A model generated the notes under the pieces. It was not told the origin of the DNA. It made no database searches and was given only the letters and a program-made list of their open reading frames with translations. Positions 16,879 through 38,427 of a DNA stretch of 38,427 nt are shown here, one piece after another. Source of the stretch: Chitinophagaceae bacterium (lineage in GTDB: Bacteria > Bacteroidota > Bacteroidia > Chitinophagales > Chitinophagaceae). The stretch is taken from positions 1-38,427 of the forward strand of contig JAHEMO010000007.1 in the NCBI GenBank assembly GCA_024643625.1, written 5' to 3'. The position numbers and the translations under genes are program-made. The stretch's first letter is position 1. Each line of letters opens with the position of its first letter.

Positions 16879-18561
<1,683 letters not shown>

Positions 18562-18611: not shown

Positions 18612-18899
18612 TTACACAATAGCGAGAATATCGCTTTCGCGCATAATCAGGTAGTCAACACCTTCCAACGAAATTTCGGTGCCTGCGTACTTGCCATAAA
18701 GAATGGTGTCACCGGTTTTTACCGTAACGGGCTCGTCTTTCTTACCGGGGCCGGCAGCAATTACTGTTCCACGCTGGGGCTTTTCTTTTGCGGTGTCAGG
18801 AATGATAATTCCACCTGCGGATTTTTCTTCGGCAGCAGCTGGCTTTACAATCACCCTGTCGTGCAATGGGGTGATAGACAACTTTTTCTCTTTTGCCAT
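18612..18899 (-). CDS. groES: Co-chaperonin GroES (10 kDa)
   Basis: 95 residues from the ATG at 18899 ([20 protein letters not shown]), the expected GroES length and start. The mobile loop lies around residues 25-40 ([14 protein letters not shown]), and [13 protein letters not shown] and [10 protein letters not shown] are conserved core strands. It caps the GroEL cage. An in-frame upstream start at 18959 would add 20 residues not found in GroES. The groES-groEL order and spacing indicate one operon. The upstream region carries paired repeats and a possible sigma54-type element. Confidence 0.98.
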
Positions 18900-18953: not shown

Positions 18954-18969
18954 ATCCATAATTGTGCCA
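18954..18969 (-). promoter_or_regulatory. Candidate sigma54-like -24/-12 element upstream of groES
   Basis: On the minus strand TGGCACAATTATGGAT matches the sigma54 pattern TGGCAC-N5-TTGCW at the complete -24 half and at three of five -12 positions (G for the second T, A for C). It would start transcription near 18944, leaving about 45 bases of leader before the groES ATG. The same DNA could be read as a TTGACA-N17-ATTATG promoter. The call is tentative. Confidence 0.35.
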
Positions 18970-18974
18970 TGTGA

Positions 18975-19006
18975 AAAATTGTCAAACCATTGCGATAAAA
19001 TTGTCA
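18975..19006 (-). repeat. Paired TGACAATTTT direct repeats upstream of groES
   Basis: Two identical ten-base copies of TGACAATTTT (19006-18997 and 18984-18975 on the minus strand) are exactly 22 bases apart, that is two helical turns. The nearer copy ends five bases from the TGGCAC element. They lie in the divergent groES/nusB intergenic region. Phase and identity suggest binding sites of a regulator or a duplicated promoter element. Confidence 0.5.
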
Positions 19007-19105
19007 GGTTCAGGGGCTGCTTCTGCCTTAGATGGCAGATTTACCTGAGCAGTAGCTGCCAATGCTGCATTTCTGTCAGCATCTGCAAAAAGCCCGCTAT
19101 TACAC

Positions 19106-34744: not shown

Positions 34745-35095
34745 TTAATTGCTATCGGTAGGCGCGGGTAGCGGCGCTGTATTGGCCGGAGCCGTAGTAG
34801 GCGCAGGTACGGTTTGCTGCGTAGGTGCACCACCGGTATTTACTTTGTCGAGCAATGTATCGCTGCCACCACTACCCATAAACAGGGTACTAAGCAGGCA
34901 AAGCACGCCAATAACAATAGCAAAAAGCCAGGTACCTTTTTCCAATACGTCGTTGGTTTGCTTTACGCCCATAAACTGATTGCCAAAACCTGCAACATTG
35001 CCGGTAAGGCCACCACCTTTCGGGTTTTGAATCAATACAATAATTCCCAGCAAGGCACTCGCCAACACTATCAATACAAAGAATAATAAAGTCAT
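34745..35095 (-). CDS. secG: Preprotein translocase subunit SecG
   Basis: 116 residues with two membrane helices (about 3-21 and 58-74) around the SecG signature VLIQNPKGGGLTG (20-32). The C-terminal tail (about 85-116) is rich in T, A and P and is longer than in E. coli, as is usual for the phylum. It is part of the SecYEG channel in the inner membrane. The start follows the TPR-like gene stop by two bases, so the genes are tightly linked. Confidence 0.94.
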   Translation of the reverse strand: MTLLFFVLIVLASALLGIIVLIQNPKGGGLTGNVAGFGNQFMGVKQTNDVLEKGTWLFAIVIGVLCLLSTLFMGSGGSDTLLDKVNTGGAPTQQTVPAPTTAPANTAPLPAPTDSN

Positions 35096-35097
35096 GA

Positions 35098-36036
35098 TTA
35101 TAGTTCTTTCAGTTTTTCCAGACGGGCGGCAAAATAAGCGGATTTGTCAGGATATAACAATTGTAATTCTGTGAATATTGCGGTGGCCTCCTTCAGGCGC
35201 CCTTGTTTTATCATTACGTCGGCCATGGTTTCGGTTTTTACCAAATGTTCCTGCAGCGATGCATTGGCTTTTTGGGTTACAGCCGTATCCTCATCTACCT
35301 GACCGGTTTGGTAGTTAATTTTTTTCATGCCCTTAAGCCACTGTGTAAAGCTTTTTACCTGCGTGTTTAGTTTGTCCTTTGCATCAGTCACTTTTACGCC
35401 TACGGCTTCAAAATAGTCTACAGTGTGGTGCGGCTGAAATAAAGCAGGCAGATCTTCCTCCGTCACCTCTTTTTGCAGGTTTTCGGCGGCGGTTTTGAGG
35501 GCATTGCCCAATCGGCTGCTTATGGGAAGGGCTTCCTCTTCCGGTTCTTCCCGTGCTTCTGTCTTTTCGGCTACTTCTACCTCGGGTAAGGATGGCTCCG
35601 GACCTTGCAATTCTGCATCATTTTGCGTTCCCGGCACTTCTTCAATTTCCTCAGCCTTTGCCGTGATATCTTCTGTAAGCCATGCAGCAGCGCGGTTAGC
35701 CACGGATTCCAGCAAGTCCTCTGCATGCTGTTGTTCCAACTCTTCATCTTCCGCTACTAAGGGTTCCGGCGCAGTTTCCTTGTATAGCTGCTGCGCAGCA
35801 TGGGTTGTGCCAGACGTGCTATGGGCATTGCGATTAAGCAGCCAATGCAAGACGTAAGGGTTTTGGATATATTGCCTGAGTTGGGCGAGATTTTGCTGCT
35901 TGTCAGCACTTTGCATGGCTTTAGCCAGCCATGCGCTTGCATACCATGGAAATTCCCCAGTGTAGTCAGTGTCGGGCAATTCGCCGATGGGTTGCTGCAG
36001 ATCTTTTATCCAGTTGGTATCCCAGTTCGTGGTCAT
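35098..36036 (-). CDS. Acidic TPR-like hypothetical protein
   Basis: 312 residues, no signal peptide or membrane segment, so probably cytoplasmic. Residues about 30-65 are helical with a YASAWLAKAMQSADKQQ start. A strongly acidic, glutamate-rich linker spans about 90-175 (EDEELEQQHAEDLLES, EEIEEVPGT, EVAEKTEAREEPEEE). The C-terminus has a TPR-like helix pair: MADVMIKQGRLKEATAIF with LYPDKSAYFAARLEKL (about 270-310). It lies between lptE and secG in an order seen in other Bacteroidota. The function is unknown; a scaffold or assembly role is only a guess. Confidence 0.75.
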   Translation of the reverse strand: MTTNWDTNWIKDLQQPIGELPDTDYTGEFPWYASAWLAKAMQSADKQQNLAQLRQYIQNPYVLHWLLNRNAHSTSGTTHAAQQLYKETAPEPLVAEDEELEQQHAEDLLESVANRAAAWLTEDITAKAEEIEEVPGTQNDAELQGPEPSLPEVEVAEKTEAREEPEEEALPISSRLGNALKTAAENLQKEVTEEDLPALFQPHHTVDYFEAVGVKVTDAKDKLNTQVKSFTQWLKGMKKINYQTGQVDEDTAVTQKANASLQEHLVKTETMADVMIKQGRLKEATAIFTELQLLYPDKSAYFAARLEKLKEL

Positions 36037-36057: not shown

Positions 36058-36561
36058 TTACCAGTTGGAAAAAAGGCGGTTAAAAATTTCCTCACTCAAT
36101 CCGCGAATAATTTCATCGCCCAAACTGGCTTCGGCTTGTTGTATGGTTTGGTTGGCCGGAAATTCAAAACTCCGCGATGCGGTATAGTCCTGCGTTTTCT
36201 GGTTTACATTGTCTTTAAGCTTAATGCTGGCCGATACCGTGAGACGGTTATTACTTACCTGCTGCCCGCTGATGCCTGATGTTGAAATACTATAGTCGGT
36301 AATGGTGCCATTAATCACCCAATCTGCATCGTCAGTAGTTACCCGCTGCAGTCGGGTTTGGCTAACTATTTTTTGCTGCAATCTATCGGTTAATTGTGGG
36401 CTCAACTGCGGGTTTACATACCTTGCTTTATTTTCAATAAAATTCAACTTTACGGTTTTTATCTCTGGTGGAATACTTACATCTTTCATCGTATAAACGC
36501 CACAACCCATTAGTATTACACTAAACAGCAAGCATACTAAAGCAACATATTTTGTCCTCAT
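36058..36561 (-). CDS. lptE: LptE-family LPS-assembly lipoprotein
   Basis: 167 residues with lipobox LMGC (C20) directly after the signal peptide, so an outer-membrane lipoprotein. GVYTMKDVSIPPEIKTVKLNF and ENKARYVNPQLSPQLTDRLQQKI are typical of the Bacteroidota LptE-like family. These proteins partner with LptD for LPS insertion. The divergent sequence makes the name partly context-based: the order activator-LptE-TPR-SecG is the usual Bacteroidota arrangement. It is 12 bases after the sigma54 activator stop. Confidence 0.82.
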   Translation of the reverse strand: MRTKYVALVCLLFSVILMGCGVYTMKDVSIPPEIKTVKLNFIENKARYVNPQLSPQLTDRLQQKIVSQTRLQRVTTDDADWVINGTITDYSISTSGISGQQVSNNRLTVSASIKLKDNVNQKTQDYTASRSFEFPANQTIQQAEASLGDEIIRGLSEEIFNRLFSNW

Positions 36562-37909: not shown

Positions 37910-38427
37910 CTACACCATATGGCCCAACAGCGTGGCTTGTGTGCAACTTTTTATTTGTACGCGCACATAGTCACCTTTAGTAATTGGCGCATCATTTTTA
38001 GGAAATACAATTACTTTGTTTTGACTGCTGCGTCCCATCCAATCCTGTTGGCTGCGTTTGCTTTCGCCTTCTATCAACACGGTAAATGTTTTGCCTATAT
38101 CAGCTTCGTTGCTTAGTCTGCTCAGTTCATTTTGAACGCTTACAATTTCGGCAAGCCTGCGTTTTTTTATGGCCTCCGGAATGTCGTCTGCGTAGCGGCG
38201 TGCAGCCAAAGTGCCGGGGCGCTCACTGTAAAAAAACATATAGCTCATATCGTAGCGGCTGTATTGCATTATGCTCATCGTGTCCTGATGATCTTCTTCG
38301 GTTTCCGTACAGAAGCCGGCAATAATATCGCTGCTGATACCACAATCGGGGATGATCTCGCGAATGCGATCTACTTTGGCCTTGTACCATTCGCGGCTGT
38401 ATGTACGATTCATCAGTTGCAACACAC
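37910..38427 (-). CDS. miaB: tRNA-2-methylthio-N6-dimethylallyladenosine synthase MiaB, C-terminal part
   Basis: About 172 codons are visible; the 5' end lies beyond base 38427. The segment MNRTYSREWYKAKVDRIRE and GISSDIIAGFCTETEEDHQDT is the end of the radical-SAM barrel, followed by YSERPGTLAARRYADDIPEA and the C-terminal TRAM RNA-binding domain (QDWMGRSSQNKVIVFPKND, KGDYVRVQIKSCTQATLLG). This layout identifies MiaB, which methylthiolates i6A37 in tRNA. The catalytic [4Fe-4S] cysteine motifs are outside the window. Translation starting inside the visible part is not expected. Confidence 0.93.
   Translation of the reverse strand, partial: VLQLMNRTYSREWYKAKVDRIREIIPDCGISSDIIAGFCTETEEDHQDTMSIMQYSRYDMSYMFFYSERPGTLAARRYADDIPEAIKKRRLAEIVSVQNELSRLSNEADIGKTFTVLIEGESKRSQQDWMGRSSQNKVIVFPKNDAPITKGDYVRVQIKSCTQATLLGHMV

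Follow-up and report, generated by a model that had tools for sequence, protein, structure and literature searches.

Paired repeats upstream of groESL in a Chitinophagaceae bacterium as putative activator sites of a sigma54-type chaperone promoter

Analysis of a 38,427-nucleotide stretch of DNA from a Chitinophagaceae bacterium (contig JAHEMO010000007.1 of assembly GCA_024643625.1; hereinafter, the window) suggests that its groESL genes are transcribed from a sigma54-dependent promoter, that two repeats located upstream of this promoter are binding sites of a sigma54 activator encoded in the same window, and that this arrangement takes the place of HrcA/CIRCE repression. We put the probability of this reading, which is derived from sequence comparison, at about 0.6.

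The groESL genes are encoded on the minus strand, with nusB as the divergent neighbor on the plus strand. As originally predicted, two identical copies of TGACAATTTT lie upstream of groES, at 19006-18997 and 18984-18975, 22 bp apart from start to start; reading along the minus strand, CTGACAATTTTATCG is followed 22 bp on by TTGACAATTTTTCAC and then by TGGCACAATTATGGAT at 18969-18954. The original prediction also placed the promoter element immediately after the repeats; the order holds but the adjacency does not, given that 5 nt (TCACA) separate the proximal copy from TGGCACAATTATGGAT. The complete proximal site, as delineated below, almost abuts the -24 element (Table 1).

Table 1. Coordinates of the features in the window that are relevant to the predicted groESL promoter and its putative activator
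Feature	Positions	Strand	Details
groES	18612..18899	minus	ATG at 18899
groEL	16879..18519	minus	downstream of groES
Distal activator site (putative), CTGACAATTTTATC	18994..19007	minus	38 nt before T of TGG; rank 3 in window, 13.5 bits, per-position p 5e-5
Proximal activator site (putative), TTGACAATTTTTCA	18972..18985	minus	16 nt before T of TGG; rank 1 in window, 17.3 bits
sigma54 -24/-12 element, TGGCACAATTATGGAT	18954..18969	minus	p=0.0006 against shuffles; model from 79 other groES upstreams, fitted without the window
Predicted transcription start	18943	minus	44-nt leader; computed from -12 position
secG	34745..35095	minus	Pfam SecG
Gene without Pfam match	35098..36036	minus	relatives in same block elsewhere
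lptE	36058..36561	minus	Pfam LptE; adjoins activator
sigma54 activator, 429 aa	36574..37863	minus	Pfam: AAA+ (sigma54 interaction domain) from residue 12, linker, C-terminal Fis-type HTH
miaB-like gene (end)	37910..38425	minus	radical SAM and TRAM matches; cut by contig end

To model the promoter element, we collected groES upstream regions from 80 loci in other genomes, 79 of which were usable (L052 begins inside the gene), and fitted a 16-bp -24/-12 model, seeded with the sigma54 consensus, on these 79 sequences, with the window excluded from the fit. The element (TGGCA, a constant spacer and the -12 G) is present in 73 of the 79 upstreams at p<0.01 against shuffles, an in-sample count. The window itself possesses a TGGCA-type -24 half, the fixed spacing and the -12 G. 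The textbook sigma54 consensus has GC at -12, whereas the window has GGA. This is nevertheless usual for the group: in relatives, the -12 G is most often followed by A (A 35, C 25, T 16 and G 3 in the 79 groES upstreams). Within the order, among the promoters that score at least 7 bits (out of 25 groES, 20 dnaK and 23 grpE upstreams examined), A follows the -12 G in 12/24 groES, 15/19 dnaK and 11/15 grpE promoters; taken over these three genes, GA at -12 is more frequent than the textbook GC.

The sigma54 factor itself, RpoN, is present in the genome from which the window comes and in all 158 genomes of the phylum that were analyzed, and therefore no inference can be drawn from losses. The original suggestion of an activator-dependent sigma54-type heat-shock promoter upstream of groES is supported, as far as sigma54 and the need for an activator are concerned, by the occurrence of the element in the same place in other Bacteroidota, by the neighborhood of the activator and groESL genes described below, and by start mapping in Flavobacterium psychrophilum, where the mapped starts of groES, dnaK, grpE, htpG, lon and clpB carry a sigma54 motif denoted SM4 (PMC9723704).

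Of the 79 groES upstreams, four (L003, L004, L006 and L011) contain a TAnnTTTG box of the primary-sigma type whose first base lies 16 nt past the T of TGG, as do 3 of 26 groES upstreams examined by genome (G011, G012 and G013). The box possibly represents an overlapping primary-sigma promoter; the groES upstream of the window does not carry it at this position. One of these loci, L004, comes from a contig labelled Streptomyces griseus, with a groES 91% identical to that of the window, and is probably a mislabelled assembly.

The two repeats are the only exact matches to TGACAATTTT in the window, but with one mismatch allowed, there are 7 matches against 6.3 expected. Counting of 10-mers alone was therefore discarded as uninformative, and the weight of the repeats rests on the relatives. 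Upstream regions of dnaK, grpE, groES and clpB were collected, where found, from 26 relatives of the same order, and a 14-bp site model was trained on 42 dnaK and grpE upstreams, leaving out the genome of the window and the truncated grpE of G007; the seed of the model was a consensus read by eye from the relatives, with the window already known. The resulting model reads CTGNCAWTTTKTC, a near-dyad, with TGACAATTTT as the core of both copies in the window. In 34 of the 42 training upstreams, the best site starts 26-27 nt before the T of TGG. When the model was run over all positions of the window on both strands, the two repeats came first and third (Table 1), one of them starting one helical turn inside and the other one turn outside the usual place.

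Eight genomes of the same genus contain a groES locus, and the groES site is located at 37-38 nt in five of these (G001, G002, G005, G006 and G009), with modest scores, and at 25-27 nt in the other three (G004, G007 and G008); these sites are weak, with p ~6e-4 each for most. In the five genomes with the groES site at 37-38 nt, the grpE site is at 26 nt (5/5) and the dnaK site at 27 nt (3/3 found); the grpE gene in the genome of the window has its site at 27 nt. Inspection by eye of the groES upstreams of G002 and G006 revealed an additional, weaker copy at 16 nt. Thus, the conservation in close relatives that the original prediction envisaged does not extend to the literal pair of 10-mers, but it holds for the degenerate class of sites and for their helical phase. 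On a broader scale, a site of at least 9 bits is present in 54 of the 73 phylum-wide groES upstreams that, out of the 79, pass the -24/-12 threshold (2.6 expected), and in 16 of 25 from the order (0.7 expected); no site of 9 bits was found in the remaining 19 and 9 upstreams, respectively. Conserved dyad-like sites, such as would be expected upstream of a target of an enhancer-binding protein, are accordingly present.

The positions of these sites are periodic. A set of 140 promoters was reduced to 125 non-redundant ones by a 60% identity rule; the set includes the 42 training promoters, and no positions past the 70-nt limit were used in training. Across the 125 promoters, the usual site is located 26-27 nt before the -24 T; 101 promoters contain a total of 131 matches of at least 9 bits, and 69 have one at 25-28 nt. 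The 62 matches outside 24-29 nt cluster near 37, 47, 57, 68, 79 and 90 nt, apart from isolated ones at 43 and 62; positions of 15-18 nt are rare (3 of the 131 matches). Among the periods tested, from 8 to 14 bp, the strongest signal came at 10.50 bp (R=0.70) and matches the usual position in phase; none of the 20,000 random sets was as strong, although the relatives are only partly independent. The 300 column-permuted models gave R of at most 0.61, compared to the observed 0.70. The periodicity is stronger in promoters that lack a site in the usual place (41 matches, R=0.80) and weaker for the extra sites in promoters that have one (21 matches, R=0.55). The predicted sites off the usual place are, then, displaced from it by whole helical turns. 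At L048, L050, L057 and similar loci, a terminator-like inverted repeat (ATGCCAGC ... GCTGGCATTTTT) was noticed by eye between secG and groES, just upstream of the groES promoter, and some of the site matches at 38-40 nt in Flavobacterium-like loci overlap such repeats, also as judged by eye.

A whole-genome search for the composite pattern (the site with TGGNA at 26 or 27 nt) yielded 8 matches in the genome of the window and 16 in G006, compared to 2 in each reversed control. Among these matches, grpE of the window's genome and dnaK and grpE of G006 are taken as candidate promoters. Another G006 match, L252 (17.9 and 4.5 bits), lacks the -12 G; a further one, L250 (11.4 and 9.9 bits), has the -12 G and is followed by a 58-aa frame alone. 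We do not claim clpB as a regulon member in the order because only 4 of the 21 clpB upstreams score at least 7 bits. The sole dnaK match in the assembly of the window, L115 on contig 150, is an HSP70 paralog of about 620 aa that falls below the dnaK cut-off and was rejected, which suggests that this assembly does not contain the genuine dnaK gene. In grpE upstreams of the order, 8 of 23 sequences, for example, L253 and L163, have a TAnnTTTG box that begins precisely 21 nt past the T of TGG, whereas only 0.6 would be expected to contain any box of this kind. The arrangement resembles two overlapping promoters, and the box was seen by eye also in the grpE upstream of the window's genome (L240).

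The original identification of a sigma54 activator gene in the window is confirmed by its Pfam domains (Table 1); no sensor domain was found by Pfam, and the protein scores below both NCBIfam cut-offs for PspF (266 of 443.55 and 215 of 529 bits). The activator block and groESL are encoded on the same strand about 16 kb apart. The activator can be tied to the groES promoter through the gene order in relatives: within the 3 kb fetched upstream of groES, a same-strand activator match, often the gene end only, was found at 36 of the 80 other loci, along with secG at 39, lptE at 23 and the gene without a Pfam match at 26. Likewise, an activator gene, lptE, groES and groEL have neighboring locus tags in F. 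psychrophilum (PMC9723704). An ortholog of the activator is present in 25 of the 27 genomes of the order (23 along the whole length and 2 over residues 2-311), including 21 of the 21 near-complete ones, whereas other activators in these genomes match the AAA+ part alone, at no more than 52% identity. In an alignment of 25 orthologs, the linker is variable (0.53, compared to 0.82 for the AAA+ domain and 0.86 for the HTH); a helix at residues 285-304 and a PV motif at 348-349 are conserved within it, and we propose that these elements are the signal entry point.

HrcA was identified in 89 of the 158 genomes of the phylum but in none of the 40 genomes of the window's class, that of the window included (an assembly about 90% complete). 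An activator match of at least 421 bits is present in 40/40 genomes of the class; outside the class, 29 genomes lack HrcA (by difference), and all 29 have an activator match of at least 336 bits (the lowest being that of G147), compared to 8 of the 89 HrcA-positive genomes by hand tally. Much of this distribution may reflect plain relatedness. The absence of a CIRCE inverted repeat upstream of groES in the window, noted in the original prediction, stands, with 9 mismatches out of 18 in the best match; given also that HrcA has no match in the assembly, about 90% complete, membership of the window in a HrcA/CIRCE regulon was rejected.

To compare the two types of elements directly, 27 genomes were picked to span HrcA-positive and HrcA-negative groups, and 26 of these yielded groES (G047 had no groES match). 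All 11 HrcA-positive genomes have CIRCE (0-2 of 18 mismatches) and lack the -24/-12 element (at most 3.8 bits); this count leaves out the second groES copies of G055 and G044, which have neither. Conversely, 14 of the 15 HrcA-negative genomes have the -24/-12 element (at least 6.6 bits, the score of 6.6 bits in two genomes falling under the 95% level of shuffles) and lack CIRCE (at least 7 mismatches). The remaining genome, G120 (L276), has CIRCE with 1 mismatch, yet neither a HrcA match nor a -24/-12 element. Hence CIRCE and the sigma54 element are mutually exclusive in 26/26 genomes, and the pattern agrees with HrcA in 25/26. Outside the class, eight HrcA-negative genomes possess the -24/-12 element, and a site of at least 8 bits was seen in 3 of these 8; the site model is thus a better fit to the class than to neighboring groups. 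Taken at the level of the class, sigma54 chaperone control seems to be used instead of the HrcA repressor.

Several other readings of the groES upstream region have to be weighed. It is very improbable that groES is driven by a primary-sigma promoter, with the sigma54 resemblance being incidental: the TAnnTTTG boxes that occur at +16 after the -24/-12 element in some relatives would fit this reading, but the window does not carry one, and relatives retain the -24/-12 element. The repeats could also be a product of chance, devoid of function, which would be compatible with the unremarkable count of the 10-mer with one mismatch; however, we give this next to no credence because the two copies rank first and third in the window under a model derived from other genes of other genomes. 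Far more serious is the scenario in which the sigma54 element is real but only the distal copy is functional, with the proximal one being a remnant or a self-limiting block of the polymerase by the activator. The 37-38 nt position is common to five of the eight same-genus groES genes and positions at 15-18 nt are rare, but the proximal copy is the top-scoring site in the whole window and the weaker second copies at 16 nt were seen by eye in two of the relatives. We regard this as a sizeable possibility but do not prefer it.

The identity of the protein that binds the repeats is a separate question. The sigma54 promoter might be real while the repeats are recognized by a different protein, which could be a repressor or any of the genome's three remaining activators; the activator encoded in the window would then serve other genes. 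There are indeed three other strong activator matches in the same genome, and fixed, promoter-close sites would suit a repressor as well, especially considering that the proximal copy almost touches the -24 element. However, it is the window's activator, not the others, that gene order links to groESL; no other activator has matches of high identity along its length across the order; and phased sites extending to about 90 nt fit an activator better than a simple blocker. We consider such a different binder rather unlikely, and the sensorless enhancer-binding protein encoded in the window most likely to be the protein that recognizes the repeats.

Under the preferred reading, in which this activator acts at the groESL promoter, we infer the following sequence of events. 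Activator dimers would bind on one helix face, close upstream of RNA polymerase with sigma54 at -24/-12, and build an AAA+ ring that opens the promoter with ATP; in the window, one copy a turn out and one copy a turn in would replace the usual single site at 26-27 nt. The distal copy fits the activation model well; for the proximal copy, either a helping or a blocking role is conceivable, the latter because its position is rare and almost touches the -24 element. Positive control would thus substitute for HrcA/CIRCE repression. Because the activator lacks a sensor domain, the stress signal would probably be relayed to it by another protein, and our preferred guess is that free chaperone keeps the activator inactive via the linker. 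More generally, we tentatively propose, at somewhat less than even odds, that a large branch of Bacteroidota swapped HrcA/CIRCE for a sensorless sigma54 activator that is encoded beside groESL in many members, acts on phased promoter-close sites and is silenced by free chaperone, with misfolded protein turning on groESL, dnaK and grpE.

Control of groES by sigma54 in Bacteroidota is already published. A survey reports enrichment of predicted sigma54 promoters at chaperone genes in Bacteroidota and states, citing other work, that Bacteroides thetaiotaomicron groES is sigma54-dependent (PMC12316311); the main text of the B. thetaiotaomicron start-site paper mentions neither RpoN nor GroE (PMC7366714). 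Our search of the open-access literature yielded no account of the activator site or its phasing, of the role of the activator or of the exchange with HrcA/CIRCE, although an earlier description elsewhere is possible. These findings name a candidate chaperone regulator and its DNA site for a major bacterial group, with an unusual geometry whereby sites on one helix face, in 10.5-bp steps, are located near the polymerase instead of at a looped distance. They also point to an evolutionary swap of repression for activation, and each of these elements is testable in tractable laboratory species.

With respect to known systems, HrcA/CIRCE has the same target genes, groESL, but is based on repression at an inverted repeat, and neither HrcA nor CIRCE was found in the case of the window. 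PspF is grouped among the sensorless enhancer-binding proteins. The window's activator resembles PspF-type proteins in combining the AAA+ domain with a Fis-type HTH and no sensor domain, but differs from PspF in scoring far under the NCBIfam cut-offs, in its linker of about 120 residues and in its target genes; the lack of an R domain in some enhancer-binding proteins is on record (PMC7175178). The closest parallel is with the SM4 chaperone promoters of F. psychrophilum. Unlike the case of the window, the account of these promoters, in its accessible portion, gives no activator site, phasing or activator assignment (PMC9723704); the two share the -24/-12 elements at groES, dnaK and grpE, and in F. 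psychrophilum, too, the activator gene and lptE are located near groESL.
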